Source of the DNA: Desulfosarcina sp. BuS5
GTDB taxonomy: Bacteria > Desulfobacterota > Desulfobacteria > Desulfobacterales > BuS5
DNA length: 64,000 nucleotides
Direction: 5' to 3'
Assembly: GCF_028752835.1 (NCBI RefSeq)
Contig: NZ_CP087952.1
Coordinates: 3,594,501 to 3,658,500, forward strand
Part shown: positions 4,164-62,300 of the stretch, in pieces
Layout of the letters: every line of letters starts with the position of its first letter
Position numbering within the stretch: the first letter of the stretch is position 1
Translations under genes and position numbers: made by a program
Notes under the pieces: model-generated
What the model was told of the DNA's origin: nothing
The model's database searches: none
The model's input: the letters and a program-made list of their open reading frames with translations, nothing else

Positions 4164-4280
4164 GCAAGCCAAATTAAGCCAAATATTGATATAGGTCAAG
4201 CCATTTTAATTTGGGACGGGATGAGGGACGTCCCCCTAATTTTTGTCAAATGTGTAGGTCTGACCCCTTTATTTACCCTA

Positions 4281-7737: not shown

Positions 7738-7932
7738 ATGTCGCCTCCTCGCTAAAAAACGTGGACGAAATCTATAGTTGAATTTTTTAAGATAACATAT
7801 ATTATTGTTATTCGCCACTGGTTTTCAGGGGGAAATACGGAACGTCTGTTTTGCCCGGGTATTTGGTTTTGCTAAAAATGACACCTATTATTTTATAAAC
7901 CCGTCCTCGTTCCCGGGCTCTGCTGTATCCGC

Positions 7933-18344: not shown

Positions 18345-18363
18345 TAAATTGGACAAATGAAAA

Positions 18364-21450: not shown

Positions 21451-21480
21451 ATTTGGATGCCGGCTTGACAAACGGCCTGA

Positions 21481-22359: not shown

Positions 22360-22365
22360 ATAATT

Positions 22366-24047: not shown

Positions 24048-24059
24048 GAGGTATTTCGG

Positions 24060-24689: not shown

Positions 24690-25461
24690 GATTTTGTTAT
24701 CGATTTTTATTCTGTTTTTATTTGGTTCTCCGGCTTCTATCCATGCGTCGGAATCTTCTTTGCCGGCCTGCAGTATAAATAATGATAGCGTACCGGATGA
24801 TGATTTGGCGGACGAAGAGCTTGATCTGCTTGATGAAGTTGGTGATTCGGAAAACTATCGGATTGCGGATCCTGTCAAGTACTGGAACATTACCATGTAT
24901 CATTTTAATGACAAGCTCTACTTTTGGGGTCTCAAACCTTTGACTAAAGGTTATATTGCGGTTACATCCAAAAGTATACGTTCTGGGGTGAAAAATTTTT
25001 TTTCCAACATTGCCACACCGATACGACTTGTGAGCTGTATCCTCCAATTGAAAATTAAAAACGCCGGAACGGAAACAGCAAGATTTGCCATCAACAGCAC
25101 AGTGGGTATACTCGGTTTTGGAGATCCTGCCAAAAAGTATTACAGCCTGAAACCTAAAGATGAAGACCTCGGTCAGACATTTGGATTTTATGGTATAGGG
25201 AATGGTTTTTATATAGTCTGGCCGTTTTTGGGGCCCTCATCTATGCGTGATTCAGTCGGCATGATTGGTGATATATTCCTTGACCCTATATTTTATGTTA
25301 AACCCCGGGAAGCGTCCATAGGCATTACAAGCTATAAAACAGTAAACGAGACATCTTTTAAAATAGGTGATTATGAAAGCATTAAAGCTGCGGCCATAGA
25401 CCCTTATGAAGCCCTGAAGGATGCATATATACAGAATCGTATAAAAAAAATAAATGAATGA
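24673..25461 (+). CDS. mlaA: MlaA/VacJ outer-membrane lipoprotein-type protein
   Basis: 262 residues, VacJ family, the outer-membrane donut that extracts mislocalised phospholipid. A signal peptide (LKILLSIFILFLFGSPASIHA) lacks an obvious lipobox cysteine, unlike classical MlaA lipoproteins. Core blocks: DPVKYWNITMYHFNDKLYFW, RFAINSTVGILGFGDPA, DEDLGQTFGFYGIGNGFYIV and PFLGPSSMRDSVGMIGD. Unlike in E. coli it is encoded in the same operon as mlaEFDC. Confidence 0.93.
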   Translation: MLHSLKILLSIFILFLFGSPASIHASESSLPACSINNDSVPDDDLADEELDLLDEVGDSENYRIADPVKYWNITMYHFNDKLYFWGLKPLTKGYIAVTSKSIRSGVKNFFSNIATPIRLVSCILQLKIKNAGTETARFAINSTVGILGFGDPAKKYYSLKPKDEDLGQTFGFYGIGNGFYIVWPFLGPSSMRDSVGMIGDIFLDPIFYVKPREASIGITSYKTVNETSFKIGDYESIKAAAIDPYEALKDAYIQNRIKKINE

Positions 25462-25634
25462 GCCGTTTTCAAAACGCCCCCTTTTGCCCGATCTCTGCGT
25501 CAGACAACCAAATCTTAAATTGGGTTTAATCCTCGAAATACGTCAGTGTATTCCTGTGGTTAAAACTTTTGCCTTTCTTGACCTCGAACAAAATTGAACA
25601 TTTTGAAACCGGCTCGAATGAATGAGGAGATTCA

Positions 25635-27215: not shown

Positions 27216-27249
27216 TTTTTTGAACGGGAGATAAGAGCGGGAGATAAAG

Positions 27250-27555
27250 ATGTCCGATGAAAAAGGTTTTGTATTAAAAGGGGATAAATCGGCAGAAAAT
27301 CAAAAGGATGTGATGCCGGGGATTGATTTTTCCACATTCATGATGTCCTTGAATGCATCTGTTCTGGTAAATTTTGGCATAATGGATGATCCTGTGACCG
27401 GAGAAAAAAGTAAAAACCTGGTTATGGGTAAACAGACCATAGATGTTTTGAGTATGCTGCAGGAAAAGACCAGGGGTAACTTGACCCCTGAGGAGGACAA
27501 CCTGCTGAAACATCTTCTCTATGAACTGCGCATACTTTATCTCAAACAACAATAG
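27250..27555 (+). CDS. DUF1844 family protein
   Basis: 101 residues. IDFSTFMMSLNASVLVNFGI, then a DPVTGEKSKNLVMGKQTIDV block and the LEEKT-like helix before LLYELRILYLKQQ identify the DUF1844 family, small conserved proteins of unknown function in Deltaproteobacteria and Planctomycetes. GGGAGATAAAG precedes the ATG. It closely follows serA and is probably cotranscribed. Confidence 0.85.
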   Translation: MSDEKGFVLKGDKSAENQKDVMPGIDFSTFMMSLNASVLVNFGIMDDPVTGEKSKNLVMGKQTIDVLSMLQEKTRGNLTPEEDNLLKHLLYELRILYLKQQ

Positions 27556-27571
27556 AAACTATGGTTTTATA

Positions 27572-27757
27572 GGCATCCTTCATTCTCAGTTTACATTTAT
27601 TTTGTATAAAAAATTAAATTTTACCGCCGAGAACGCAAAAAACGCAGAGAAAACTACTTGATTTTTAATGTAATATCTCAGCGAACTTTGCGGTAAAATA
27701 CTGATTCTGACATTAAAAAAAAGTGTTAACTACTTTTGGGCATTAATGAAAGATGCC
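27572..27757. mobile_element. MITE-like element, family R2 copy 1, with 8-bp target duplication
   Basis: 186 bp with terminal inverted repeats GGCATCCTTCATT / AATGAAAGATGCC. Perfect direct repeats GTTTTATA flank it at 27564-27571 and 27758-27765. The core has the widespread TACCGCCGAGAACGCAAAAA-like motif. Its right target repeat abuts the R1 element at 27766. It matches the copy at 29944-30130 in reverse orientation over its whole length. No coding capacity. Confidence 0.85.
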
Positions 27758-27765
27758 GTTTTATA

Positions 27766-27890
27766 TATAGATTTTCACATAATTAATCTCACAGGGATAG
27801 AGGAAAAAATTTGGGTGAGGCGTACTGGCAGTATGTCGACCGAAGATTTTGACCGATAGCGTAGTGAAATTATTTATGTGACAATCTATA
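27766..27890. repeat. MITE-like element, family R1 copy C
   Basis: 125 bp with 27-bp inverted ends: TATAGATTTTCACATAATTA (27766 on) and TTATGTGACAATCTATA (to 27890). Sited 20 bp before ispE, so it includes any promoter there. Together with the R2 element it fills the gene-free gap 27556-27910. Confidence 0.75.
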
Positions 27891-27910
27891 ATCTATAGCG
27901 TCCATTCATA

Positions 27911-28813
27911 ATGATTATTTCTCAAGAGCCTCTTATTGATGTTTCAGGGCGGATCAAGGTTTTTTCACCGGCCAAAATCAATCTTTTTTTACATATTACA
28001 GGGAAAAGACCGGATGGATTTCATGATCTGGTCTCCCTGATGTGTTGCATTAATCTTTATGATACACTCTATATCAATTTGGGCGCTGGGAAGACAGCCG
28101 TTACCTGCACCTATCCCGGAGTTCCATTAGATAGGCAAAACATAGCCCTTCAAGCCGCAAGCGCCTTCCTCAACTCAATAGATATTTATGAAAAAGTTGG
28201 AATTCATATAATAAAACGAATACCTGTCGGTGCAGGCCTGGGCGGAGGCAGCAGCAATGCCGCCGCAGTCCTTCGGGCCTTGAATTATTATTATGGTTAT
28301 CCTTTTTCCAAAGATGAATTATTTTCAATTGGGCTCTCCCTTGGAGCCGATGTACCTTTTTTAATTTTCCGTAAGCCTGCCATTGTTTCCGGGATAGGTG
28401 AAAAGATAGAATCGTTTTATGGTTTATCAAACAGGTATCTTTTATTGATATATCCGGGCTTCAGCATATCGACTGCGGAGGTATTTAAAAAATACGATTT
28501 AAGATTGACAAAAATTAAAAAAAAAATTAAACTTAAACTTTTATTAAAGGACAAAGTCAGAATTGAGTCCTTGTTATGGAACGATCTTGAAGAAGTTGCG
28601 GTTGCAGGGTATCCTGAAATATCTTATGCAAAAAAGGCTCTTTTGAGTCAGGGTGCGCAAGGGGTACTTATGACAGGAAGCGGATCCGCTGTTTTTGGCC
28701 TTTTTTCTGATTTTCGTAGAGCAAAAATAGCCCATGATGCCCTTTCGCATAATATTAACTGGAAGCTTTTCCTTACTGATTTGATTGTTTATCAGGGGCA
28801 CGATGCCAAGTAA
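27911..28813 (+). CDS. ispE: 4-diphosphocytidyl-2-C-methyl-D-erythritol kinase
   Basis: 300 residues, GHMP kinase of the MEP isoprenoid pathway. Motifs: SPAKINLFLHITGKRPDGFH, the ATP-binding RIPVGAGLGGGSSNAAAVLR, GADVPFLIF, and MTGSGSAVFGLF. The first about 15 residues before KVFSPAK are longer than usual, so the start could lie slightly inside. The stop TAA is the first triplet of a perfect 26-bp palindrome. Confidence 0.95.
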   Translation: MIISQEPLIDVSGRIKVFSPAKINLFLHITGKRPDGFHDLVSLMCCINLYDTLYINLGAGKTAVTCTYPGVPLDRQNIALQAASAFLNSIDIYEKVGIHIIKRIPVGAGLGGGSSNAAAVLRALNYYYGYPFSKDELFSIGLSLGADVPFLIFRKPAIVSGIGEKIESFYGLSNRYLLLIYPGFSISTAEVFKKYDLRLTKIKKKIKLKLLLKDKVRIESLLWNDLEEVAVAGYPEISYAKKALLSQGAQGVLMTGSGSAVFGLFSDFRRAKIAHDALSHNINWKLFLTDLIVYQGHDAK

Positions 28814-28836
28814 GGGCACGATGCATCGTGCCCTTA
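28811..28836. repeat. Perfect 26-bp palindrome at the ispE stop codon
   Basis: TAAGGGCACGATG and its exact reverse complement join without spacer. No T-run follows, so it is not a standard intrinsic terminator. Its centre (ATGCAT) and form resemble widely scattered intergenic palindromes; the 28-bp palindrome at 13723-13750 is of similar type. Confidence 0.8.
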
Positions 28837-28849
28837 CCCATAAATTTAC

Positions 28850-28924
28850 TGGGGCGTCGTCAAGTGGCAAGACACAGGATTTTGGTTCCTGCATTCGGAG
28901 GTTCGAATCCCCCCGCCCCAGCCA
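28850..28924 (+). tRNA. tRNA-Gln (anticodon TTG)
   Basis: The acceptor arms TGGGGCG / CGCCCCA pair fully, followed by G and an encoded CCA. The D arm is GTC-AAGTGGCAA-GAC; the anticodon stem CAGGA/TCCTG encloses loop TTTTGGT with anticodon TTG; the T arm is GGAGGTTCGAATCCCCC. U1 at the acceptor end is typical of tRNA-Gln. Its place between ispE and prs is a known arrangement in this group. Confidence 0.95.
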
Positions 28925-28985
28925 TATGATGTTTTGAGAAATGATTTCTGTGTGGAGATGTTAATTTTATAAATGGAATGACCTT

Positions 28986-29924
28986 ATGAATGGAATGTCA
29001 TTATTTGCTGGAAATTCAAATTCCGATTTAGCAAAAAAAATATCTGTTTACCTTGATAAGCCCCTTGGCTCAGCCACGGTTAAGACCTTTAGCGATGGTG
29101 AGATTCAGATTGAAATCAAGGAAAATGTAAGGGGAAAAGATGTTTTTTTGCTTCAGTCTACCTGTGCTCCCGTAAATGACAACCTGGTAGAACTGTTGCT
29201 TATGCTGGATGCTTTCAAGCGTGCTTCGGCCAGCAAAATTACAGCCGTAATCCCTTATTACGGGTACGCAAGGCAAGACAAAAAAGTAGCTCCGAGGGTA
29301 CCTATCAGCGCAAAATTGATCGCAGATTTGTTGACCATTTCGGGTGCCACCAGGGTAATCACGATGGACTTGCATGCTGGTCAGATCCAGGGTTTTTTCA
29401 ATATTCCGGTTGACAATCTTTATGCAGCTCCTGTGATCATTGAATATGTTAAAGAAAAATTTGACCATGATCTAGTGATAGTCTCGCCTGATGCCGGAGG
29501 CGCTGAAAGGGCCAGAGCCTTTGCCAAGCGGCTTAAGGCCGGACTGGCAGTTATTGACAAGCGGAGAAGCGCTCCCAATAAGGCTAAAGCCATGGCGGTT
29601 ATAGGTGATGTAAAGGGAAAAATAACGATAATTCTTGATGATATGGTTGATACTGCCGGTACATTGACCGAGGCTGCGGCAGCATTGCATGCAAATGGAG
29701 CTCGTGAGGTTCACGCCTGTTGTTCTCATCCTGTTCTGTCAGGCCCGGCCCTTCAGCGTATTAATGATTCGGTCTTGAAAAGCCTTTTGGTGACCGATAC
29801 AATTCCGCTAAGTAAAAATGCAGCCGAGTGCGATAAGATTAAGGTCATTACCATAGCCGACATAGTCGGGGAAGCGATGATCCGATGTCATAACGGTGAT
29901 TCTGTAACTTCTCTTTTTATTTAA
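28986..29924 (+). CDS. prs: Ribose-phosphate pyrophosphokinase
   Basis: 312 residues; makes PRPP from ribose-5-phosphate and ATP for nucleotide, His and Trp synthesis. Motifs: [63 protein letters not shown] and the PRPP loop [16 protein letters not shown] at 28986 ([10 protein letters not shown]). Confidence 0.97.
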
Positions 29925-29943
29925 ATTTTTTTTACGAATTTTA

Positions 29944-30130
29944 GGCGTCTTGCATTGGGGCGTAAAAGTATTTAACACTTTTTTTCCATGTTAAAATCGG
30001 TATTCTTACCGCAGAGGACGCAGAAAGCGCAGAGGCACTGCTTAAAATTTAATGTAATATCTTAGCGTTCTCAGCGTTGAAATTTAGTTTTTTGTACAAA
30101 GTAAATGTAAGCTGAAAAGTGAAGAATGCT
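29944..30130. mobile_element. MITE-like element, family R2 copy 2, with 8-bp target duplication
   Basis: 187 bp lying between prs and rplY. Perfect direct repeats GAATTTTA are at 29936-29943 and 30131-30138. Ends GGCGTCTTGCATT (left) and the reverse complement of the right end AGCATTCTTCACT. It aligns end to end with the element at 27572-27757 on the opposite strand, including the core TACCGCAGAGGACGCAGAAA. Confidence 0.85.
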
Positions 30131-30161
30131 GAATTTTATATTATTTTAGGAGGTTCTTTTT

Positions 30162-30812
30162 TTGGATTTTGTTGAATTAAAAGCAAATATTAGAAAAACA
30201 TCCGGTTCCGGCGTTGCCCGGACATTGCGATCTGCCGGAAAAGTCCCCGGGGTGCTTTACGGCCCGTCAGTGGATCCGATTTTACTCTCTCTCGACGTTA
30301 ATGAATTGGAGACGAGCTTAAAAAAGGGCAAAATGGGCATGTCCATCTATAATTTGGCCATTCAGAATGGAAATACCACTAACAGGTCTGCAATGATTAA
30401 AGAGTTGCAAACCGATCCCATTACAAGAATGTTTCTGCATGTTGATTTTTATGAAATCGCATTGGATCGCAAAATAAAGGTCAACGTTCCGCTTATTCCG
30501 ATAGGCAAGTCAAAAGGCGTGGAACTTGGAGGAATTTTGCAGGTAATCAGGCGTGAACTCGAGGTATTCTGCTTGCCGAATGAAGTTCCCAATAGTATTG
30601 AGATAGATGTGACAGATCTTGAGATAGGTGATTCAGTTCATGTTGAAGATATTTCTTTGGATGGAGGTATTGAAATTCCGGCGGAAGTAAATTTTACAGT
30701 TATTACTGTAATAGGAGCAAGGGTTGATGAAGAATTAGAGGAAGAGGCAGAAGAAGTCGAAGGAGAAGGGGCTGAAGAAGGAGATGCTTCTGAAAGCAAG
30801 GGAGATGAGTAA
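30162..30812 (+). CDS. rplY: 50S ribosomal protein L25/CTC
   Basis: 216 residues, the long CTC form of L25, which binds 5S rRNA. N-terminal FVELKANIRKTSGSGVARTL, then KVPGVLYGP; the C-terminal TL5 domain is followed by an acidic tail rich in Glu/Ala. The start is the TTG at 30162, with AGGAGG 8 nt upstream. The R2 element lies directly before this leader. Confidence 0.95.
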   Translation: MDFVELKANIRKTSGSGVARTLRSAGKVPGVLYGPSVDPILLSLDVNELETSLKKGKMGMSIYNLAIQNGNTTNRSAMIKELQTDPITRMFLHVDFYEIALDRKIKVNVPLIPIGKSKGVELGGILQVIRRELEVFCLPNEVPNSIEIDVTDLEIGDSVHVEDISLDGGIEIPAEVNFTVITVIGARVDEELEEEAEEVEGEGAEEGDASESKGDE

Positions 30813-30815
30813 TCT

Positions 30816-31403
30816 TTGGCTGATGAAATCCGTCTTGTGATCGGTCTTGGCAATCCCGGCGAACAGTACAGAAAAACACGTCATAATGCCGGTTTCATGG
30901 TTATCGATGCTATTTCGAATACTTTCGCGATTGCCCTTGATAAAAAAAAGTTCGATGCTGAATTCGGGCGTGGCTCCATAGAAGGAGTTGAAGTTATTCT
31001 GGTAAAGCCTCAATCCTTTATGAACAGAAGCGGCCCCCCGGTGCAGAAACTGGCGGCCTATTTTAAAATATCAACTCAGGATATTCTGGTCATTCATGAT
31101 GATATTGACCTCAACTTAGGAAGATTAAAAATAAAAGAGAAAGGAGGGGGTGGCGGACATAATGGTATAAAATCGCTGATCAATGCTTTAAATGGCGTTA
31201 ATTTTTCAAGACTTAGGATAGGAATCGGACGCCCCAATGAGCATATGGGCATTATTGACCATGTTCTTGGCAGATTCACGTCTGGAGAGTCTGAAGTCAT
31301 GGAACTGACCATTGCCAGGGCAAAGGAGGCGGTTGTTGAGATACTTTGTAATGGTATCAAAGAAGGAATGAACAGGTTTAATGTAAATTTTATTGACTGT
31401 TAA
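30816..31403 (+). CDS. pth: Peptidyl-tRNA hydrolase
   Basis: 195 residues; recycles tRNA from drop-off peptidyl-tRNAs. LVIGLGNPGEQYRKTRHNAG carries the catalytic His and substrate Asn; KPQSFMNRSG and HDDIDLNLGRL with GGGGHNGIKS complete the family signature. The start is the TTG at 30816, 3 nt after the rplY stop, so the two are coupled. Confidence 0.96.
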   Translation: MADEIRLVIGLGNPGEQYRKTRHNAGFMVIDAISNTFAIALDKKKFDAEFGRGSIEGVEVILVKPQSFMNRSGPPVQKLAAYFKISTQDILVIHDDIDLNLGRLKIKEKGGGGGHNGIKSLINALNGVNFSRLRIGIGRPNEHMGIIDHVLGRFTSGESEVMELTIARAKEAVVEILCNGIKEGMNRFNVNFIDC

Positions 31404-31500
31404 GAGGCCTTTGCGATTATAAATTTAACTCAGCCGTGTATGGGTTGATAAAATTTTAATTTTGGCGGGGTCTCGCTTTTATTGAAAACGGAGGATAAAT

Positions 31501-33534
31501 ATGGAATCAATGATGGAGAATATTCCATTAATATGTACATTTGCAGGTATTGCCGGTGTTGTATTTGCTTTAATTCTTGCAGGAGCCGTCAAAGCTGCTC
31601 CAGCAGGAGACGCAAAAATGAACGAGATTGCCGCTGCTATCAAGTCTGGAGCGATCGCTTATCTTAATAGACAGATGAAAAGTATGGGTCTTGTGGGTAT
31701 AATTATTGCCATCATACTTTTTTTTGCTCCTGGATACGGTTCCTGGGCTACGCTTGGTTTTGTCATAGGTGCGCTTGCATCCTATCTTGCAGGATATATC
31801 GGTATGCGTGTTTCAGTTCTTGCCAATGTAAGAACAGCGGAAGCATGCAAAAACGGTCTTAATGCAGGTCTTAGGCTGGCATTCAAAGGTGGTTCCGTTA
31901 CAGGAATGATTGTTGCCGGTCTTGCATTAACATCCTGTGCCGGTCTTTACACCATATTGGTAAAAGAGGGGGTAGAGCCGGGCCATATTTCTGTTGCGAT
32001 GGTGGCCCTGGGTTTTGGTGGAAGCCTTATTTCTATTTTTGCGCGGCTCGGCGGCGGCATCTTCACCAAGGGCGCTGACGTGGGCGCTGACCTTGTAGGC
32101 AAGGTAGAAGCAGGAATCCCCGAGGATGACCCGAGAAATCCTGCAACAATAGCTGATAATGTTGGTGATAATGTTGGTGATTGCGCCGGAATGGCCGCTG
32201 ATCTTTTTGAAACATACGCAGTTACTACAGTAGCGGCGATGGTACTTGCGCATCTTCTTTTTCCGAAAAGCAATGCAGCCGTAGTTTATCCGCTTCTACT
32301 CGGAGCAGTCTCGATTATTGCATCTGCAATTTCAGTCTTTTTTGTCAAACTTAAAGAGGGCGATGATTACATCATGGGCGCTCTTTACAAGGGTATGTTC
32401 GGAGCTGCAATTTTGGCAGGAGTAGCCTTTTTACCTGTAACCAAAAAAATGATGAGCGAGGTTCCGGGTATTTCAGCCATGAGTCTTTATTATTCATGCC
32501 TTGTAGGTCTGGTTTTAACCGTTGTAATAGTTATTATTACGGAATATTATACCGGCGTTCGTAAACCCGTTAAAGATATTGCAGAAGCTTCCACCACCGG
32601 CCATGGCACCAACATAATAGCCGGCTTGGCTGTCAGCATGCAGTCGACCGCACTGCCGGTCCTGGCCATCTGTTGCGCAATACTTGCCTCCAGTTATTTT
32701 GCAGGACTTTACGGTATTGCGATTGCTGCTGTTTCAATGCTTTCCATGACCGGTATGGTAATTGCGATTGATGCTTACGGTCCTATCACTGATAATGCCG
32801 GTGGAATTGCTGAAATGGCTGAAATGGATGAATCCGTGCGCGCAATAACCGATCCCCTGGATGCGGTTGGTAATACCACCAAGGCGGTTACAAAAGGTTA
32901 TGCCATTGGTTCTGCTGCCCTTGCCGCGCTTGTTCTTTTTTCCGCCTACACCCAGGAGTTCAAACATTTAGGAACAACCCTCGAGTTTGATTTATCCAAT
33001 GTCGACGTTCTGGTAGGGCTCTTTATCGGTGGATTGCTTCCTTATCTTTTTGGTTCTTTTGCAATGAAGGCCGTTGGAAAAGCCGGTCATGCTGTTGTTA
33101 AAGAGGTTAGGCGTCAGTTTGCTGAAATTCCTGGAATCATGGAAGGCACGGCAAAACCGGATTATGCTGCCTGTGTTGATATTGTAACCAAATTTGCGCT
33201 TTCAGAAATGATGATACCAGCCCTTCTGCCTGTTATTACACCGATTATAGTAGGTTTCTGTCTTGGCCCGGTAGCTCTCGGCGGACTCCTTATCGGAAGT
33301 ATTGTTACGGGTATTTTTGTAGGTATTTCCATGACAACCGGTGGGGCAGCCTGGGATAATGCTAAGAAATATATTGAAGACGGCAATCTTGGCGGCAAGG
33401 GTAGTGATGCCCATAAAGCTGCCGTAACAGGCGACACAGTTGGCGATCCTTACAAGGATACTGCCGGTCCGGCGATCAACCCGATGATCAAGATTCTTAA
33501 CGTGGTTGCGCTTCTCCTTGTTCCGTTTTTATAA
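31501..33534 (+). CDS. hppA: Membrane-bound H+-translocating pyrophosphatase
   Basis: 677 residues with about 16 membrane segments. It couples pyrophosphate hydrolysis to ion pumping. Substrate-site motifs: [38 protein letters not shown] and, near the C-terminus, [18 protein letters not shown]. In the K+-dependence region the sequence reads [20 protein letters not shown]; Lys after GNTT (rather than Ala) marks the K+-independent, proton-pumping class. GGAGG precedes ATG 31501. A terminator follows. Confidence 0.95.
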
Positions 33535-33560
33535 GAAAGATTTATTTTTTAAGTAGTTTT

Positions 33561-33597
33561 AAAAGGATTGGCCCTTTAAAGGGTCAATCCTTTTTTA
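33561..33597 (+). terminator. Intrinsic terminator of hppA
   Basis: AAAGGATTGGCCCTTT pairs with AAAGGGTCAATCCTTT (one mismatch), followed by TTTTTT. It lies 27 bp after the hppA stop. Confidence 0.85.
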
Positions 33598-33649
33598 TTG
33601 ATTGTCCAAAGGATATATGATATTAGTAACATTAAATAAAATAATTTTT

Positions 33650-33742
33650 GGCGTCCTTTTTTTGGGCGCAATAGAGTAGCTATTACTTTTCTCCATGTTA
33701 TCATCGATACTTTTACCGCAAAGGAACTGCTTAAATTTTATG
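33650..33742. repeat. Decayed R2 element remnant at the carD start
   Basis: GGCGTCCTT, CCATGTTATCATCG, ACTTTTACCGCAAAGG and CTGCTTAAATTTTATG align in order with the left two-thirds of the R2 element at 29944. Internal deletions and loss of the right end make it a relic. Its last bases include the likely carD ATG (33740). Confidence 0.65.
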
Positions 33743-34312
33743 GAAATCAAAATAATAAAGAAACAGACCAGAAAACATACTGAGAATGTATGTAAATTTA
33801 AAGTCGGCGATCTGGCCGTTTATCCGGCCCACGGAGTGGGACTTATAGAGGCAATTGAAGAAAAAGTGATCAACGGAGAACAGCATGATTTTTATATATT
33901 AAAGGTCATAGAAAACGGAATGGTCATTATGATACCGACCTGGAATGTTGACCAGGTTGGGCTAAGAAATGTTGTTGATCCTGATGATATTCCCAAAATA
34001 TATGGTGTCATAAAAGAGGAGCAGGCCTCTGTTGTAGACAAACAGACCTGGAACCGCCGTTACAAGGAATATATGGACAAGATCAAGACAGGCTCTATTT
34101 ATGATGTGGCGGAAGTATTCCGTGATCTTTATCATCTTAAGCTTACTAAAGACTTGTCCTTTGGAGAACGCAAACTTTTTGACACTGCCCGGGTTCTACT
34201 GGTGACAGAGCTGTCAACTGCAAGAAATGTAGATGAGGCTGAAATCAAGTCCGAAATTAATTCTCTTTTTGAAACATTCTCCGATGAAAATTCATCAACA
34301 ATGCCTGATTAA
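33740..34312 (+). CDS. carD: CarD/CdnL family transcription regulator
   Basis: 190 residues from ATG 33740 (MEIKIIKKQT). The N-terminal CarD RNA-polymerase-interacting Tudor-like domain begins FKVGDLAVYPAHGVGLIEAI and includes ENGMVIMIPTWNVDQVGLR; the helical C-terminal domain has the RRYKEYMDKIKTGSIYDVAE signature and LSFGERKLFDTARVLL. CarD stabilises promoter open complexes. The frame extends upstream to 33695, but that part is R2 repeat sequence. Confidence 0.92.
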   Translation: MEIKIIKKQTRKHTENVCKFKVGDLAVYPAHGVGLIEAIEEKVINGEQHDFYILKVIENGMVIMIPTWNVDQVGLRNVVDPDDIPKIYGVIKEEQASVVDKQTWNRRYKEYMDKIKTGSIYDVAEVFRDLYHLKLTKDLSFGERKLFDTARVLLVTELSTARNVDEAEIKSEINSLFETFSDENSSTMPD

Positions 34313-34328
34313 AACTTCTCATAGAATA

Positions 34329-35330
34329 ATGTATAACCATGGCGCTTTTTCCTTTAATGTAACTAAAAAAGATACCGGAAAACGCCTTGATCAGGTCATT
34401 GCATCTACCCTTCCCGAATATTCCCGCACTCTTATAACAAGTCATATCCGCAATGGATATATTCTTGTTGCCGAGACACAAAGAAAGCCCGGATACCGAG
34501 TATCTGCAGGGGAAGAGATAAATGGAATTATTACGCCTCAGGAAGCCTTAACATGCACTCCCGAACCAATCAATATAGATATTATTTTTGAAGATATAGA
34601 TATTATTGTAGTAAATAAACCACCAGGCTTGGTGGTGCACCCTGCGCCGGGACATTATACCGGCACCCTTGTTAATGGACTGCTTTATCATTGCCCCGGC
34701 CTTGTTGATACCGGCGAGCAATTCAGGCCTGGTATTGTGCACAGGATTGATAAGGACACATCAGGCCTGCTGGTTATTGCTAAAAACCGACAGGCTCATA
34801 ACAGGCTTGCCGATCAGTTTAAATCAAGAACAATAAAGAAAAATTATCTTGCCCTTGTGCACGGTAAAATGGAATCCCAACACGGTAGAATCTCACTTCC
34901 CATAGGCAGGCATCCTGTTCAGAGAAAGAAGATGTCGACAATCAGCAGAAATAGCAGGGAAGCTGTAACGATATGGAAGGTCAAAGAGTGTTTTGAAAAC
35001 GCAACACTTATTGAAGTTAATCTAAAGACCGGCAGGACGCACCAGATTCGCGTTCATACAGCTGTATTGGGGCATCCGGTTTTAGGCGATCAGATATATG
35101 GCGGGAAAAAAAGGGATAAGTTTGTTGAAGAAAAAACATCCCGACAAATGCTGCATGCCTGGAGACTTGAATTTTTGCATCCCATAAAAGGGAATAGAAT
35201 TTTTCTTGAAGCGCCTATTCCTTCCGATATGGAGCAGGTACTTAGTGCTCTGCGGTCCGGGGTTAAGCTTACTGCCGGCACGTCGATCGAACCCTTACCT
35301 TTCCATCGAATCCGGCCGAAGCGGTTCTAA
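34329..35330 (+). CDS. rluD: 23S rRNA pseudouridine synthase, RluD type
   Basis: 333 residues from ATG 34329, 16 nt after carD. An S4 RNA-binding domain (RLDQVIASTLPEYSRTLITS) precedes the catalytic domain: GIVHRIDKDTSGLLVIAKN with the catalytic Asp, KNYLALVHG and KTGRTHQIRVH. The last about 22 residues after LSALRS are atypical and run into a hydantoinase-like remnant, so the natural C-terminus was probably altered by a deletion. Confidence 0.93.
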   Translation: MYNHGAFSFNVTKKDTGKRLDQVIASTLPEYSRTLITSHIRNGYILVAETQRKPGYRVSAGEEINGIITPQEALTCTPEPINIDIIFEDIDIIVVNKPPGLVVHPAPGHYTGTLVNGLLYHCPGLVDTGEQFRPGIVHRIDKDTSGLLVIAKNRQAHNRLADQFKSRTIKKNYLALVHGKMESQHGRISLPIGRHPVQRKKMSTISRNSREAVTIWKVKECFENATLIEVNLKTGRTHQIRVHTAVLGHPVLGDQIYGGKKRDKFVEEKTSRQMLHAWRLEFLHPIKGNRIFLEAPIPSDMEQVLSALRSGVKLTAGTSIEPLPFHRIRPKRF

Positions 35331-53744: not shown

Positions 53745-55109
53745 TTGAAAAAACAAGCGGCTGTTTTTTTCCTTAATGAAAAAAAAATCTATTTTGCAAT
53801 GCCGGATTCAGGCGGCAGCCTCAATTTTCAGCAGAGTTATTCAATTGAAGAATTTTTAAGCGGCGACAAAAGGTTTAAACTTTCTCCGGACAGAGCTTCG
53901 AATATTTCCATTGATTTGCTGATCGTGCCGGACTACTGGATTTCCACAAAATCGTATAAATTTAATTCAAAAAACAGGGCTGTAATAGAAAGCTTTATTA
54001 AAAGAAAAATACCCGGGAGTGGAAATTTTTTTGAATATGAACTTTATCATACTGATTCAGCGGAACAATTTCTGCGGGTATATTTTTTTGATGAACCGAA
54101 ATTTTTCCTGGTCTATGAAAAGCTTCTGTCATTCAATATCCAACCCGGAAAAATAACTTCATATGCTTTTTTATGGCAGCAAAAACTTAATACTATCTCA
54201 AATTTCAGCCAGGCTGAAACCGGCTTTATCCATCTTCGCAAGGATGAATGCTCTTTATATTTTTATGAAAAAGGGCAGTTTGTCTTTTCACGCAATATCA
54301 AGCTTGTTTCCGCTGCTGACATTTCCGAAAATTTCGACCTGTTAACCTACGAAATAAATCAATCCCTGCATCTTTTTTCTCAGCAGTCCAAAAAAAATAT
54401 CGATCGCTTTTACCTGTTGTCCGGGAATAAGCAGGACGCCTCTTTGCTGTCGCAAAAACTCGAAACAGAAGTGCTGACAGCAGAATTCAGCATTCCGGAA
54501 CAACCCACTCTGCAAAAAAATGTCGAAGATTTAACTCCTTTTACTTTTTTTAGTGCTGCTGATCTTGACTATTCCGGCAACCTGCTCTGCATTACGCACA
54601 ATGATGTAAAAAATGCTGAAAAATGGGGAATAGTCTTAAAAACAGGTATCATCGTTGGAATCTTTTTTTTCTTACTAATGATCGGCGAAGCGGTTTATAT
54701 ATCAAAAGCGGGCAGATTTCAAATCCAAAACAAAGATATTCAATCCTCAATAGCACTGGAAGAAACAATCAGTAATTTTTCTGAAGCGGTTGATCAACTA
54801 TCCACGGAAATTACCCGCCCGGATTATCAGAATTTGATAATCAAAGTTATTGAGTCTCTTCCCGATAATATCCGTATCAGCGAAATAAAAATTGAAACAG
54901 ATCCGGTTCAACAGGTTAATTTAAAAGGCGTGGTAAAGGCTTCCGGTCATTCTGAACTTCAGGATAAACTTTCAATTTTTTTGTCCGGCCTGAAAAAAAA
55001 TATTAAATCAGCCGCAACTCTATCAATAGATGATATTAATATAAAAGATTTTAAAAGCAGCGCCATAGAAAAATTTTATGATTTTGAATTCAGATTTAAA
55101 CTGTCATGA
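53745..55109 (+). CDS. PilM/PilN-like (MshI-like) pilus assembly protein
   Basis: 454 residues from TTG 53745. The cytoplasmic N-terminal region (about 1-290) is a diverged actin-like PilM/GspL part. One membrane segment (GIIVGIFFFLLMIGEAVYIS) is followed by a coiled coil and a PilN-like periplasmic domain (IKVIESLPDNIRISEIKIET, VNLKGVVKASGHSEL). PilM and PilN are usually separate; here they are fused as in MshI/GspL. It overlaps the next gene by 4 bp. Confidence 0.7.
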   Translation: MKKQAAVFFLNEKKIYFAMPDSGGSLNFQQSYSIEEFLSGDKRFKLSPDRASNISIDLLIVPDYWISTKSYKFNSKNRAVIESFIKRKIPGSGNFFEYELYHTDSAEQFLRVYFFDEPKFFLVYEKLLSFNIQPGKITSYAFLWQQKLNTISNFSQAETGFIHLRKDECSLYFYEKGQFVFSRNIKLVSAADISENFDLLTYEINQSLHLFSQQSKKNIDRFYLLSGNKQDASLLSQKLETEVLTAEFSIPEQPTLQKNVEDLTPFTFFSAADLDYSGNLLCITHNDVKNAEKWGIVLKTGIIVGIFFFLLMIGEAVYISKAGRFQIQNKDIQSSIALEETISNFSEAVDQLSTEITRPDYQNLIIKVIESLPDNIRISEIKIETDPVQQVNLKGVVKASGHSELQDKLSIFLSGLKKNIKSAATLSIDDINIKDFKSSAIEKFYDFEFRFKLS

Positions 55110-55636
55110 AAAATAATATTAAAAAATATTCTATCCGGGTTTCTATCATCTGGGGCGCAAGCTTAATCCTTTTTTTTATAAATATCAGTCAGCTCAGAAT
55201 GCTGACAAAAGAAAAATCAGGTCATTTGCTGCACCTGGCTCAAAAACAATTTACACATGAATATTCCAAAGAGATTGAAACGGCATTTCAAAAAACAGGC
55301 TTGCTCTGCAAGGAAGTCGAAAGCACGAAGATCTGGGTTCTGAATCTGAAAGAGGATTTTACTGCCCTGGCGACAAAATTCGGGCTCTCAAAAATCATCA
55401 TTCAAAGCCCTCAAAATCAGAACTTTAGTATGCAGACTGATGTGCCAATCAGGATACAGACCACTAAAATCACATTATCCTGCGAAGGGCCCTTAAAAGG
55501 CTTTATTGAGCTTATTAATGCCGCGCATAAAAAATATCCGTCGCTTTATTTCAGCAAAATGGAAATTATACTCAACCCGGAGGATATAAACGATAAATTT
55601 AATCTTTGCATGACGTCAAGGTATAAAAAAATATAA
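55106..55636 (+). CDS. PilO-like (MshJ-like) pilus assembly protein
   Basis: 176 residues with one N-terminal membrane segment (VSIIWGASLILFFINISQLR), a helical linker and a ferredoxin-like periplasmic region (TTKITLSCEGPLKGFIELIN, YFSKMEIIL). This is the layout of PilO/GspM. It would pair with the PilN-like domain upstream to form the inner-membrane alignment complex. Overlaps its upstream gene (ATGA). Confidence 0.65.
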   Translation: MKNNIKKYSIRVSIIWGASLILFFINISQLRMLTKEKSGHLLHLAQKQFTHEYSKEIETAFQKTGLLCKEVESTKIWVLNLKEDFTALATKFGLSKIIIQSPQNQNFSMQTDVPIRIQTTKITLSCEGPLKGFIELINAAHKKYPSLYFSKMEIILNPEDINDKFNLCMTSRYKKI

Positions 55637-55637
55637 G

Positions 55638-56180
55638 ATGCTTGCGTTACTTGATAATAAAAAACCGATTTTTATTGGAGGATGGATTTTAGTGGCTGTT
55701 TTGCTGCTTTTATACAATGGTTTTGTGATAAATAATTTTTATAAACCACAGGCTTCAATCGGCATGGAAAATCTGGCGCATCTTAAACTTAAGTGTGAAG
55801 ATTTGTTTAAAAATCAAAATTACGTTGCAAATAATAAAGCTGATCGAATCGACTATGACCGGTTATTTTCAAAATTTACAAAAAAATCAAAAATTACCCC
55901 TAAAACAGCCGCGACCCGGGAAGAGATTCAAAAGGAGGTGATCAAAAAAGTTGAACCAAAGCTTCCCGATCTTACGGGGATTGTTAAAAGTTTTAATGTG
56001 TATGGGAAAATCCGCCTGCTTGCAATGCTTGATGGTCTGGTTCTATCGGAGCAAGGGATAATTAATGAATTTAAAGTTGAAAAAATTACTGAAAAAGGAA
56101 TTACCCTGAAAAAAGGGGAAGACTCCTGGTATATCCAGGCGCCTGAAGTTGTTTTTTCTCTGGGAACACGGACAAAATAA
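55638..56180 (+). CDS. PilP-like (MshK-like) pilus protein
   Basis: 180 residues with one N-terminal membrane segment (GGWILVAVLLLLYNGFVI). The C-terminal domain (LLAMLDGLVLSEQGIINEFK, VEKITEKGITLKKGEDSWYI) has the small beta-sandwich pattern of PilP/GspC homology-region proteins that contact the secretin. One base separates it from the pilO-like gene. Confidence 0.65.
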   Translation: MLALLDNKKPIFIGGWILVAVLLLLYNGFVINNFYKPQASIGMENLAHLKLKCEDLFKNQNYVANNKADRIDYDRLFSKFTKKSKITPKTAATREEIQKEVIKKVEPKLPDLTGIVKSFNVYGKIRLLAMLDGLVLSEQGIINEFKVEKITEKGITLKKGEDSWYIQAPEVVFSLGTRTK

Positions 56181-56197
56181 TAAAAGGTTCAACGCCT

Positions 56198-57715
56198 ATG
56201 TATTTTTCCATAAAATCAATAAAATTTACGGTTTTTATTTCTGCGCTAATATTTGGCAGCTTTGTTTTGCAGGGATGTATCCATCTTTCAAAGCCCGGAA
56301 CAATCGAGCAGCCGGAATTGGAAAGGATAGATCCCAAAAGCAAACTAATCAATGCAAGTAAATCTCATCACCCGGGCTGCCCCGGGCCTCCGCCATTTTT
56401 GGAAAAACTGGAACCTGTGAGTAAAAGCGCAAAAAAAGATTCAAGGCTTTTTTCTTTTGTTTTTAATAAAACAGAGTTTGGAGTTGCGCTTGCAGCACTG
56501 ACAAAAAGTTCAGATTTGAATATATCGGTTGAATCGGGTGTCAATCTTGTAAAACCGGTTACTGTGCGTTTAAAAAATGTAACCCTTAATGAAGCGCTGG
56601 AGATGATTGTTACAAAAGGCGCCGGTTATGTCTGGGATATCAAGGAAGACTGCATTTACATCAAACGATTTGTGGAAAAAATTTATAACTTCGATTATCT
56701 GGATCTGACAGGCACAACTGAAATTGCAGTCGGCGGAGATATGCTTGCATCGAGTGTGGAAGATTCCGGGGTAGCCGGAAAATTTAAAGTAAATGCCGAA
56801 AAAAAAAAAGAAGCCGGCAATATCTGGCAATATTTGCAGGAAATGCTGGAGGGTTTTAAATCACCCGAAGGCCTGCTTCGGGTGAACAGAACCGGAGGGG
56901 TCATCTATATGTCCGATTATCCGGAAAAAGTCGAGGCTATGGTGAATTTTCTGGATTCCATATCGGAGGTTTTACACCGGCAGGTCTATATTGATGCCAA
57001 TATCTATGAAGTGCGTTTAAGCGATAAAAACAAGTATGGCATAAACTGGTCAAACCTTGCGACAACTTTTACGTCCAGCTCCGGTTTCTGGCCTGATTCT
57101 TTTAATTTAAACGTTAACTCCGGCTCAATTGTTTTATCCGGTCAGTCGAGTGTTACTGCTGCGCTCGATTTTTTAAGAACTCAGGGAGATGTAAGTGTTC
57201 TTTCAAACCCGCATCTTTCGGTTATGAACCGCCAATCTGCTTTATTAACGGTCGGATACCAGTTCCCTTATGGTAGCATAGATGGTGTGGACCGTGATAC
57301 GGAAACAGGGATGATTACCTATGGATCTGAAATAAAACGGGCTATTTTAGGCATCCAGCTCGGGATAACCCCGCAAATATCCTCCGGGGGAATTATTACA
57401 CTCCATATAGTGCCGACAATAACCAGAATCCAGAGAGAAGAAGACGTCAGTGTGCCGGTGGCTGCCAATGAGGTGCAGGTCATTTCAAATCCTGTAATTG
57501 ACTTGCAGGAACTCTTTACCACAGTAAGGGTAAAACATGGCCAGACTATTGTTTTGGCAGGTTTGATCAGTCAGGTAAAAGATATAAAGCACGAAGGCCT
57601 TCCTTTTTTAGGAAGCATACCTTTCCTGGGCCGCCTGTTTCAAAACGTGGAAGATAATCTGGAAAACAAGGAACTGGTAATTTTTATTACCCCATATGTC
57701 AGAAATCCGATTTAA
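56198..57715 (+). CDS. mshL: Secretin, MshL/PilQ type
   Basis: 505 residues. Lipoprotein signal with lipobox LQGC near residue 27. An N-terminal STN/secretin short domain (VALAALTKSSDLNISVESGV, NVTLNEALEMIV), N1-like domain and the secretin beta-barrel: DFLRTQGDVSVLSNPHLSVM, GIQLGITPQISSGGIITLHI, VRVKHGQTIVLAGLISQ and GLPFLGSIPFLGRLF. It would be the outer-membrane pore of the pilus. Confidence 0.9.
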   Translation: MYFSIKSIKFTVFISALIFGSFVLQGCIHLSKPGTIEQPELERIDPKSKLINASKSHHPGCPGPPPFLEKLEPVSKSAKKDSRLFSFVFNKTEFGVALAALTKSSDLNISVESGVNLVKPVTVRLKNVTLNEALEMIVTKGAGYVWDIKEDCIYIKRFVEKIYNFDYLDLTGTTEIAVGGDMLASSVEDSGVAGKFKVNAEKKKEAGNIWQYLQEMLEGFKSPEGLLRVNRTGGVIYMSDYPEKVEAMVNFLDSISEVLHRQVYIDANIYEVRLSDKNKYGINWSNLATTFTSSSGFWPDSFNLNVNSGSIVLSGQSSVTAALDFLRTQGDVSVLSNPHLSVMNRQSALLTVGYQFPYGSIDGVDRDTETGMITYGSEIKRAILGIQLGITPQISSGGIITLHIVPTITRIQREEDVSVPVAANEVQVISNPVIDLQELFTTVRVKHGQTIVLAGLISQVKDIKHEGLPFLGSIPFLGRLFQNVEDNLENKELVIFITPYVRNPI

Positions 57716-57834
57716 CCGGAATTATTTTTATCAAAAATACCCCCTGGCCCTAAAGCTTTAAAATTTTCACAGGATAATAAATTACAGGCAATGTTTTTTG
57801 ATTAGCTGTTTTATTTTTATGAGGAGGAAATTTT

Positions 57835-58409
57835 ATGCAATTGATAAACCTTAAAAAAAACCAGTCCGGTTTTACGCTGGTTGAAATCGCAATTGTTCTT
57901 GTTATTATCGGTCTTTTACTGGGAGGCGTTTTAAAAGGCAAGGAGATGATAAAGAGCGCCAAGGTAAAAAAACCGTCAAAATGGCGGATGAACTCCGCGC
58001 GGCAACAATGACCTTTTATGACAAATACGGCGCTTATCCGGGAGACGAAAACAACAAAAAAATTCCACCAAAAGACAAGCACGAGGGCAACGGAAACGGA
58101 TTTATGTCCTACGAGGAACGGTATATGGTATTCGAAGACCTGATGAAAGCAGGTTTTATATCAGGGAGTTATGACGGAGAAAAAAACCTCCCCAAGCATG
58201 CGTTTGGCGGCAATGTTGCGATTTACTGGACGAAGGCCCTTAGTGCGCCTGCTGATCATTATATTGTAATGTGGGGCCTGCCCTGGGATGCCGCCATGGA
58301 GATAGACATGAAATATGATGACGGCAAAGAAAAAACAGGATCAATCCGTTCAAGTGAAAGATATGCTGAATCCAGCGGCCCCATAGGTTATATTATCTGG
58401 GCTCTTTAA
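57835..58409 (+). pseudogene. Type IV pilin gene split by a -1 frameshift at A-AAA-AAA
   Basis: From ATG 57835 (AGGAGG 8 nt upstream): MQLINLKKNQ then SGFTLVEIAIVLVIIGLLLG, a class III signal peptide and pilin helix with Glu5. After KSAKV the zero frame is lost and stops at about 58008. The -1 frame carries on TVKMADELRAATMTFYDKYG to TAA 58409. The junction GTA-AAA-AAA-CC (57964-57974) is a perfect A AAA AAA slippery heptamer. It may be decay, phase variation or programmed frameshifting; joined length would be about 191 residues. Confidence 0.75.
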
Positions 58410-58434
58410 AAATCAGGTTGGCAGGTTATTCAAA

Positions 58435-59307
58435 ATGAACAAGCATCTTTTACCTATTACAAAACAGGATGGTTTTACCCTGATAGAGATTGCCATTGTG
58501 CTGGTAATATTAGGTATCCTGGCAGGGGGCGGCATCTCTTTGCTTTCAGTTCTGACCGAACGGAAAGCCAGGAACGAAACCATTGCTTATTTAAAATCAA
58601 CAAAAGAGGCTTTGATCAGTTTCGCCAATATCAGCGGTCGGCTCCCATGGGCGGATACGGATAATGACGGAAATGAAAATACCGGCTCGGCCCGCGGAAG
58701 GTTGCCCTACCTGACCCTTAATCTCACTCCAACGGATTTTTACAAAAGAGTTTTAATATATGAAACCAACAGCAGCCTGTCAGTCGACAGGCCGACAGGC
58801 TGCCGCACACTTAAAAACGGCCTTTCGGGAAGTCCGGAGATTGTGGATGCAGACGGCAGCGGAACAGCTTTTCCTGCGGCGGCTGTGATTGTCAGCGCCG
58901 GGCCGATGGATGCCGACAATAACGGGAATGTCTTTGATGATATTACCGGCAGTACCCATAACGGCGATAACACCGACGGTGTTCCCAACTATATTCGTCA
59001 TCCTCCGGTTACAGGGTTTGACGACCTTGTTGCATATATAAGCGGAAATGAATTATTCGGCATGATTTGCGGGGATCCGGTTCTTTCAGTTAACAACAAT
59101 TCCACCGCTACTGTTTATGTGCGGGATCAGACCGGCGGCACGGATCTGTGCAGCCTCAATTCTGGCAACATCTTTACCCAGCATATTTTATCCGGAACAA
59201 CTATTACAATCGAAACTGCGCAAAACGGCACAGGCGCTATTGTCCCGACCACGCCGCCCAACCCGGTTACTTTGGCCGGGAACGGGATGAGCATTGATAT
59301 TCCGTAG
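58435..59307 (+). CDS. Prepilin-like protein with large C-terminal domain
   Basis: 290 residues. Leader ending KQDG, then FTLIEIAIVLVILGILAGGG, a prepilin peptidase site with Glu5. The large C-terminal part is rich in Asp/Asn/Gly (DTDNDGNENTG, MDADNNGNVFDDI), which may bind calcium, and ends in Thr/Pro-rich sequence. Probably a minor or tip pilin (MshO/MshQ-like role). 25 bp after the split pilin gene; last gene of this operon. Confidence 0.8.
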   Translation: MNKHLLPITKQDGFTLIEIAIVLVILGILAGGGISLLSVLTERKARNETIAYLKSTKEALISFANISGRLPWADTDNDGNENTGSARGRLPYLTLNLTPTDFYKRVLIYETNSSLSVDRPTGCRTLKNGLSGSPEIVDADGSGTAFPAAAVIVSAGPMDADNNGNVFDDITGSTHNGDNTDGVPNYIRHPPVTGFDDLVAYISGNELFGMICGDPVLSVNNNSTATVYVRDQTGGTDLCSLNSGNIFTQHILSGTTITIETAQNGTGAIVPTTPPNPVTLAGNGMSIDIP

Positions 59308-59440
59308 TCAGTGTCTATCCATAAATGGCTATTTCGCCCGATATCTGCGTTGCTCTAAAAATTTAATCCTCAAATAATTTCTACGAATGGTTTTTTTTTA
59401 CCCAATCCGTGTTTATCTGTGCAAATCCGTGTCCAATAAA

Positions 59441-60655
59441 TTAATAAGCGCTTCCAAATGACCCGATTACATCATAAAGCGGCAGCAAAATAGATAAAAC
59501 AATAATACCAAAAACAGCCCCCAAAAAAATTATGGTGGCCGGTTCAACCGCGTTTATCATGGTCTGAACGCTTCGCTTGACTTCACCATCGTAATAATCC
59601 CCCAGGCGTTTAAAAGAATCATCCAGGGTACCTGTTATCTCCCCGCTTCTGATAGCGCCAAGCAGCAACGGCGGAAAAATATTTACCGTTTCAAAACCTT
59701 CAGCAATCTGATGGCCTTCCTGGATATACTGAAACACAATTTCAAGACGCTTTTCAACATACCTGTTCCCGAGCACATTATTCGCCAGGATATCGAAAAT
59801 ATCGGTTATTTTCATTCCCGACCTGTACATTGTGGCAAAATTGTGGCTTAGCTGGGCAAAAACAGAATTTGCGATAACCGTTCCTATTAAAGGGACCTTT
59901 AGCAGGTATTTGTGAAACCTGATTTTTCCATTTACTGTTTTACAATAAAAAATAGATACGGCCAGAGATCCGAATATCAACCCGATTAAAAATAACCAGT
60001 TGGCCCGGACAAAACCGCTTAGCCCTAAAACCGTCTCTGTTATGCCGGGAAGTTTTACCCCCATCTCAATCAACACTGCGGCCATCTGCGGCAGAACGTA
60101 TCCAACCCAGACACCTATTACAGCAACAATCACAACCATCATAAAAACAGGATACATGGCAGCTCTTTTAAGGGTTGACCTGATATCCTCCTTCCATTCC
60201 AGAAAATCAGCCAAATCACTCATGCATTTCGGCAAAACTCCGGCAAGTTCGCCCATCCTGACTATGCCGAGGTCTAATTTCCCAAATATTTTGTGATACC
60301 GGCTCATGGCTTCATAAAGAGTATTGCCGCTCTCAACGGCAACCCGAACCTCGCCAACCACATCTTTTAATCGAGCCGAAGGGAGTGACCTGGCGTTTTC
60401 ATCCAGGGCAGACATCAACGGAAGCCCCAGGTTCATAGCCTGGGAAAGCCGGTGATAAAATTCGATCAAAATTCTCGGCTTGACATTATTCTTTTTTAAA
60501 AAAAAACTGGAAATATTGCTTTTAACCTGCTTTGCTTTAATCAGAGTCAAGCCATCATTTTGCAGACGATTTTCCAGGTTCTCTTCTCCAATGGCAGCCG
60601 CTGTTCCTTTAACCAGTTTGCCTGATTTATCAATTGCGCTGTATTTATAATTAGG
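59441..60655 (-). CDS. mshG: Type II secretion / type IV pilus inner-membrane protein (GspF/MshG)
   Basis: 404 residues from ATG 60655 (MPNYKYSAIDKSGKLVKGTA). Two GspF domains: FYHRLSQAMNLGLPLMSALD and FAQLSHNFATMYRSGMKITD, each followed by membrane segments; PPLLLGAIRSGEITGTLDDS and VEPATIIFLGAVFG are family hallmarks. It is the platform protein of the pilus motor. The start overlaps the mshE stop. The gap 59308-59440 holds repeat-like text (CCGTGTTTATCTGTGCAAAT) only. Confidence 0.92.
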   Translation of the reverse strand, partial: PNYKYSAIDKSGKLVKGTAAAIGEENLENRLQNDGLTLIKAKQVKSNISSFFLKKNNVKPRILIEFYHRLSQAMNLGLPLMSALDENARSLPSARLKDVVGEVRVAVESGNTLYEAMSRYHKIFGKLDLGIVRMGELAGVLPKCMSDLADFLEWKEDIRSTLKRAAMYPVFMMVVIVAVIGVWVGYVLPQMAAVLIEMGVKLPGITETVLGLSGFVRANWLFLIGLIFGSLAVSIFYCKTVNGKIRFHKYLLKVPLIGTVIANSVFAQLSHNFATMYRSGMKITDIFDILANNVLGNRYVEKRLEIVFQYIQEGHQIAEGFETVNIFPPLLLGAIRSGEITGTLDDSFKRLGDYYDGEVKRSVQTMINAVEPATIIFLGAVFGIIVLSILLPLYDVIGSFGSAY

Positions 60656-62300
60656 CATCTGCAACCACCCTGAAGACCTCTTCCATGGATGTAATACCAC
60701 GGGCTACTTTTTTTAAGGCCTGTTTTATTAAAAGATTTGTTCCTCCCTTTACCGCTGCATCTTCAATAGAGGCTTTCAGAGCTCCAGCATGGATTATCTC
60801 GACTATCGCCCTGTTAACAACCATGATTTCATAGATTCCGGTACGGCCGCTGTAGCCGGACCGGTGGCAGCTGTCGCATTTTCCGGGGCTTGGTATTTTT
60901 GCAGGCGGTTTGATGCCGTGCCGGATAAAGAGCTCTTTTTCGTCTGACGCAGCAGTCCTTACGTTGAGGCATTGCGGGCAAATACGTCGCATAAGCCTTT
61001 GGGCCACAACCATAGAGAGTGAAGACGCCAGGGTGCTGGGATTAATTCCGATATCGATAAGTCTGTTGATCGCGGAAGCAGCGTCATTGGTGTGCAGCGT
61101 TGACAGAACCAGATGGCCGGTGATCGAAGCCCGCATGGCCAGCTCGGCTGTTTCCCGATCCCTGATTTCTCCTACCAGGATTATGTCCGGGTCCTGCCGC
61201 ATGGCTGCTCTTAATGCATTGGAAAATGTAAAATTCGCCTTTGGATTTACCCCGGTCTGCCTTATTGTGGGAATTACATATTCAATCGGATCTTCAACAG
61301 TCATCACATTAATTTCAGGCCGGTTCACTGCCATAAGAGCTGAATAAAGGGTGGTGGTTTTGCCGGACCCGGTCGGGCCGGTTGTAAGGATCAGACCATA
61401 AGGCCTCTTTAAATTTGCCAAAAATCTTGCAAGCTCATCCTTTTCAAAACCAAGATCTTCTATTTCACCGACAACACTGCTGTAAATCAGGAGCCGCATT
61501 ACAACGGTTTCGCCAAGATGAGTAGGAAAGGTGGAAACTCTGAGATCAAATTTGCCGGCCGGGCCCTGATATTTGATGTGGCCGTCATGCGGTATGTTCG
61601 GATTTGAAATATCCATGTCGCCCATAATTTTAAAACGGGTTACAAGACCCTGGTGAAATTTTTTGGGGAAAAGATATTCCTGCAGAAGCACCCCGTCAAC
61701 CCGGTAAAAGACTCTGACCAGATTTGTATCCGGCACTACGTGAATATCACTGGCCCCCAGAACATGCCCTTTTTCCACAAGCAGCCCGGCAAGCCTGATT
61801 ACCCGGTTTTCGTCCTGCGTCCCTTTTTCCGCTCCGCTCCGGGTTATCTCTTCTATTTCACTATCGACCATTGCTGCTGTCTGGTAATAGAGCCTGATTG
61901 ACTTTGCAACCCATTCCGCCGGCGCCAGGTATGTTTTCACCCGGCAGCCGGTCATTCTGGCAATATTGTCTTTGGCAATCACATCAAAAGGATTGGCAGT
62001 GGCCACTTTGATGGTCTTATCGACTCTGGCAAAGGGAAAAACTGAATTTTTTTTTACAAAATCGACAGGTATCTGCGAAATCAGCCCCCGGTCAATCTCC
62101 ACGGTGGAGGTATTGAGCATTTCAGCCCCGCTTTGAACGGCAATAGCCATCTGAAGCTCTTCTTCGCTAATCCAGTCCAGCCTTAACAGGACCTCTCCCA
62201 GCATCAGGCCTGTCTTTTTTGCTTCAACAAAGGCCAATTCTATCTGGTCATTGTCTATAAACCCCATTTCGACCAAAATATCTCCGATTCTTTTTTTCAT
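60651..62300 (-). CDS. mshE: Pilus extension ATPase with MshEN domain (GspE/MshE)
   Basis: 549 residues. N-terminus RIGDILVEMGFIDNDQIELA and LMLGEVLLRLDWISEEELQM give two MshEN-like motifs, known to bind c-di-GMP. ATPase: Walker A TTGPTGSGKTTTLYSAL, Asp box DPDIILVGEIRDRETAELAM, His box GHLVLSTLHTNDAASAINRL, and zinc cysteines CPQC...CDSC. It powers pilus extension. ATG overlaps the upstream stop by 4 bp. Confidence 0.93.
   Translation of the reverse strand: MKKRIGDILVEMGFIDNDQIELAFVEAKKTGLMLGEVLLRLDWISEEELQMAIAVQSGAEMLNTSTVEIDRGLISQIPVDFVKKNSVFPFARVDKTIKVATANPFDVIAKDNIARMTGCRVKTYLAPAEWVAKSIRLYYQTAAMVDSEIEEITRSGAEKGTQDENRVIRLAGLLVEKGHVLGASDIHVVPDTNLVRVFYRVDGVLLQEYLFPKKFHQGLVTRFKIMGDMDISNPNIPHDGHIKYQGPAGKFDLRVSTFPTHLGETVVMRLLIYSSVVGEIEDLGFEKDELARFLANLKRPYGLILTTGPTGSGKTTTLYSALMAVNRPEINVMTVEDPIEYVIPTIRQTGVNPKANFTFSNALRAAMRQDPDIILVGEIRDRETAELAMRASITGHLVLSTLHTNDAASAINRLIDIGINPSTLASSLSMVVAQRLMRRICPQCLNVRTAASDEKELFIRHGIKPPAKIPSPGKCDSCHRSGYSGRTGIYEIMVVNRAIVEIIHAGALKASIEDAAVKGGTNLLIKQALKKVARGITSMEEVFRVVADA

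Follow-up and report, generated by a model that had tools for sequence, protein, structure and literature searches.

Genes that change frame at a run of A's have several described counterparts. The authors of the GeneTack survey considered its singletons at poly-A/T runs to be probable indels or errors of sequencing (PMC3711429, cited here and below from an excerpt). The tssM1 gene of Citrobacter rodentium, part of an envelope machine, is broken near a run of 11 A's, beyond which it stays open in a different frame; it is rescued by transcriptional slippage, for which a frameshifting of about 20% was measured and a second example exists in Yersinia (PMC4256274, likewise in excerpt). Programmed -1 frameshifting of the dnaX type uses the heptamer A_AAA_AAG. 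The stimulatory Shine-Dalgarno sequence upstream of such sites lies at a distance of about 10-14 nt. Here, we analyzed a split pilin gene in a stretch of 64,000 nucleotides from Desulfosarcina sp. BuS5 (the window). The gene resembles the GeneTack singletons in being the one split member, with an A-run of 7, of an otherwise intact family, and does not differ substantially from what the excerpt gives of them; the change is pinned down here by a congener whose run is longer. With tssM1 it shares a break near poly-A in an envelope-machine gene whose remainder is open in another frame, but the pilin gene has 7 A's, shows no conservation and is known from sequence alone. With the dnaX type it shares an A-rich heptamer in the same phase; it differs in lacking a Shine-Dalgarno sequence at the usual distance, structure above chance, and conservation. 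The surrounding genes resemble MSHA-type pilus clusters in comprising an MshL-like secretin, an ATPase with an MshE-type domain and two prepilin-like genes, although the secretin scores under the MshL cut-off. We propose that a prepilin-like pilin gene of an MSHA-like cluster recently went out of frame by a one-base contraction of its poly-A tract, and we give this reading a probability of roughly 0.5.

The gene and its neighbors comprise the following features.
56198-57715, forward strand: secretin, MshL-like (TIGR02519, 203.9 bits, under the cut-off of 250.2)
57821-57827, forward strand: Shine-Dalgarno-like GAGGAGG ahead of the pilin start, read from the sequence
57835-58011, forward strand: zero-frame ORF of 58 amino acids with prepilin leader, Glu5 and N-terminal helix (PF07963, E 3e-9)
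57966-57972, forward strand: A7 tract, the frame-change point, where the congener has 8 A's (from sequence and alignment)
57972-58409, forward strand: -1 frame continuation, the globular part of the pilin
58435-59307, forward strand: second, longer prepilin-like protein of 290 amino acids (PF07963)
59441-60700, reverse strand: GspF/PilC-type inner-membrane platform protein (PF00482)
60651-62300, reverse strand: GspE/PilB-type ATPase with MshE-type N-terminal domain (PF00437, PF05157; NF053729 over cut-off)

The split gene thus sits between the MshL-like secretin and the second prepilin-like gene, and the locus is, judging from gene content and domain matches, a predicted MSHA-like pilus cluster. 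In L004 and L005, the intact pilin likewise has a gene resembling the 290-amino-acid prepilin-like one beside it. The Shine-Dalgarno-like sequence before the pilin ATG at 57835 is strong, and the frame of this ATG reads GTA AAA AAA CC at 57964-57974 and passes, beyond the tract, through 12 out-of-frame codons to a stop. The prepilin N-terminal motif with Glu5 is present (PF07963; TIGR02532 over cut-off), from which the product is predicted to be a type IV pilin-like protein. The -1 frame runs uninterrupted through the tract, open from 57885 to the stop codon at 58407-58409, and contains an ORF of 142 amino acids (57981-58409). No Shine-Dalgarno-like sequence was seen by eye before the ATG at 57981, and this 142-codon remainder is therefore unlikely to be made by itself. 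Together, the two parts match one intact congener ORF of 191 amino acids (L007, 2854-3429), so that the split is real in this assembly. An earlier note, made from the letters of the window, had described a pilin divided between the zero and the -1 frame that would join through this heptamer into an uninterrupted protein of about 191 residues, and both the junction, with its coordinates, and the length agree with our reading. No second copy of the pilin was found in the genome, where each of the 17 other prepilin-motif matches falls within an open frame of 138 amino acids or longer.

The nearest congener (L003/L007, MAG AUK125) shares 94% DNA identity over 4,563 aligned columns (L026). At the same alignment column its run is one A longer, and its gene is a single ORF of 191 amino acids; between the window's genome and this one sister the tract therefore measures 7 versus 8 A's, with the 8-A state in frame, in line with the length changes of A-tracts that the earlier note had brought up. 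When 389 genomes of the order were searched with a profile, the pilin family turned up in 28. Besides the window's own gene, whose profile match is limited to positions 44-192, all 27 homologues are single open frames of 191-271 amino acids with no internal stop, including that of G161, which matches profile positions 1-95 only. The tract site could be read in 26 of the 28 loci (L127 and L148, the latter being the window itself, gave no readable ORF), and the A-run there is at most 5 in 25 of these, with the congener as the sole exception. Most of the family has Val-Lys-Arg at this site, without an A-run, and among the loci read Val-Lys-Lys is written as an A-run in this genus only. The absence of the tract from 25 of the 26 readable loci indicates that it is genus-specific and recent, and parsimony points to the unsplit gene as the ancestral state. 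A search for the pilin region in the assembly of a further congener, G002, was negative apart from short matches, most of them repeats; this genome could therefore not serve as a second sister. Which congener is closest varied by region: G001 is 94% identical over 54112-58672, the pilin area, whereas over 18347-35302, farther upstream, the nearer genome is G002, at about 92-95% in many stretches versus about 84% for G001.

According to the proposed contraction, the tract would be young, the A-run having arisen within the genus at the family's mostly Val-Lys-Arg site. Replication slippage would then have left it one base shorter and broken the pilin frame. The zero-frame product, consisting of the N-terminal helix only, should not make a pilin, and full-length protein would be expected at most as a small leak through ordinary ribosome or polymerase slippage on A7. 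We infer that the contraction is present in the cells and not just in the assembly; slippage is its probable cause, and the pilin product is probably lost or nearly so. The seven-A state was seen as one base in one genome (an assembly of 2 contigs), which cannot show fixation.

Selection on the gene was estimated against the congener. The dN/dS ratio is 0.19 for the upstream part, on 5 changes only, and 0.32 for the downstream part, with ratios of 0.43, 0.66 and 0.23 for three neighboring genes. The earlier note had counted on purifying selection downstream, and the value of 0.32 in the coding frame, versus 1.02 and 1.54 when the alternative frames are read, bears this out. When polarized by three outgroups, the 19 downstream amino-acid differences divide into 6 derived in the window, 7 derived in the sister and 6 ambiguous ones. 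By these measures, the downstream part appears still to be under purifying selection, with neither excess change nor decay on the window's branch, which argues that the break is recent or artefactual. The absence of decay is compatible alike with a pseudogene whose break is very recent, with an unbroken gene and with continued expression, and a signal of purifying selection would also be expected if the product were still made.

We see a residual consensus error as the main rival and as a serious, if less probable, possibility: the pilin gene would be intact in the organism, with the tract at its greater length, and one A would have been lost in the assembly. One-base homopolymer loss is a classic error of long-read consensus sequences, and would be a candidate here should the 2-contig assembly derive from long reads. 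Apart from the frame change the gene is undamaged, its branch carries no surplus of changes, and all 27 relatives are intact, as an error would have it. However, 186 of 188 coding homopolymers of at least 6 bases had the same length as in congeners over 48,866 aligned coding bases, and 24 of those agreeing were tracts of 8 or more bases. This comparison covered 26,731 bases with 98 tracts in the window (alignments with fewer than 600 columns or less than 83% identity were dropped) and 22,135 bases with 90 tracts in three other stretches of the 20 fetched (limits of 500 columns and 77%), to which L104 (4,043 bases) and L108 (1,736) added few bases, since the greater part of each failed to align. 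Only at the pilin tract does the length in the window's genome depart from that of all aligned congeners; at the other differing tract (L114, 4462) it equals G001 and differs from G002. This agreement indicates that the consensus is generally sound in the stretches compared and favors a real indel, although one isolated consensus error at the pilin tract remains quite possible. A crude scan for genes split at homopolymers in 464 kb, to be taken as a rough guide only, gave 24 events in 4,436 tract tests versus 34 at 13,308 random points. Inspection of 12 of the 24 by eye left the pilin, L100 8193 and perhaps L108 13274 as apparently split, and the presence of these other two at short homopolymers speaks again for consensus errors. 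Several other events, such as the junctions at window 44450 and L114 11851, proved by eye to be gene starts or overlaps.

A toggling tract was also considered. The papers found on phase variation of pilins at homopolymers dealt mainly with Neisseria and other pathogens. In the present case, reversible alternation of the tract between 7 and 8 A's would toggle pilin production in a fraction of the cells. The unequal length between congeners and the preserved downstream frame would suit such a switch, and phase-variable products typically include surface structures, pili among them (PMC3711429, excerpt). Nevertheless, we consider it improbable: the tract was seen in two genomes only, with one length in each, it is not conserved in the family, and coding tracts of at least 8 bases are ordinary here, the comparison in the window including 17 further ones, none of which varies between congeners.

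The earlier note had further suggested that expression may be set by recoding. The heptamer indeed conforms to X_XXY_YYZ and lies in phase at the frame junction, with the -1 frame open, as programmed -1 frameshifting that sets the amount of pilin would have it; purposeful transcriptional slippage at the site could be imagined likewise. The emphasis on a split exactly at a slippery heptamer holds for the phase, but less for its significance. In 464 kb (the window and 20 further stretches, with 366 ORFs), 250 of the 670 A7 heptamers within ORFs are in slippery phase, so that any one-base loss from an A-run has a chance of about one in three of mimicking a slippery split, and the pilin region contains five A-runs of 6 or more. 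The 250 sites of A_AAA_AAA in slippery phase are spread over 151 of the 366 ORFs. After a codon ending in A, 250 of 400 Lys-Lys pairs are written AAA-AAA, versus 211 expected from codon usage; the heptamer is thus not avoided in this genome, unlike an efficient signal. In E. coli, A7 is markedly rarer than expected whatever the frame (PMC4066793, excerpt).

No stimulator was found in the form of downstream structure above chance or a conserved upstream Shine-Dalgarno sequence at about 10-14 nt. The stability of the downstream RNA does not exceed that of shuffled sequences (z +0.38; wider region, z -0.96), and the upstream AAGGAG (57940-57945) lies 20 bases from the heptamer and reads AAACAG in the congener. 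Neither the site nor the split is conserved: none of the 27 homologues is split, and a long A-run occurs in 1 of the 26 readable loci, that of the congener, the only homologue read that has the heptamer and one whose gene is unsplit. An A7 cassette gave 10% frameshifting in E. coli (PMC3711429, excerpt), which makes some leak plausible and speaks for recoding; in another assay, stimulator-free heptamers did not exceed ten times the background, which was about 0.055% (PMC4066793, excerpt). The known rescue by transcriptional slippage uses a longer run, the 11 A's of tssM1 (PMC4256274, excerpt). With intact relatives, an unconserved and unavoided heptamer, no stimulator and, in the excerpt of PMC3711429, singletons usually put down to indels or errors, we do not retain the earlier suggestion and regard programmed recoding as very unlikely. 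Scarcely more credible is a variant in which the cells keep a genuine seven-A allele and -1 slippage of a few to ten per cent yields enough full-length protein of a low-abundance pilin, the chance frameshift thereby serving as a dosage setting. In-frame A_AAA_AAA occurs in about 4 of 10 sampled ORFs of this A-rich genome; at so commonplace a heptamer, a split ORF alone is no sign of recoding, which calls for caution elsewhere. If the contracted allele is real and still expressed, the locus would constitute a clean natural test of incidental slippage rescuing a gene.

Some further observations were made along the sampled stretches. A 7-state Viterbi gene model run on the 464 kb mistook ordinary overlapping genes for frameshifts and missed the pilin, and it was abandoned. 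At L100 8193, a transposase-like frame is apparently split at an A6 run. At L108 13274, a 183-codon frame gives way, at a C5 run, to a differently phased one of 1,547 codons, possibly a split large protein. Dispersed repeats of about 40-160 bp are numerous in the genus, with matches at tens of sites in the assemblies of the congeners; they were located in the window at 4277-4443, 7931-7973, 25457-25615, 27766-27890 and 59305-59374, with copies in G001 and G002, and at L104 7543-7660, and they look like small mobile or REP-type elements. The N-terminal domain of the ATPase at 60651-62300 is of the cyclic-di-GMP-type MshE class, which suggests that the pilus may be under c-di-GMP control.
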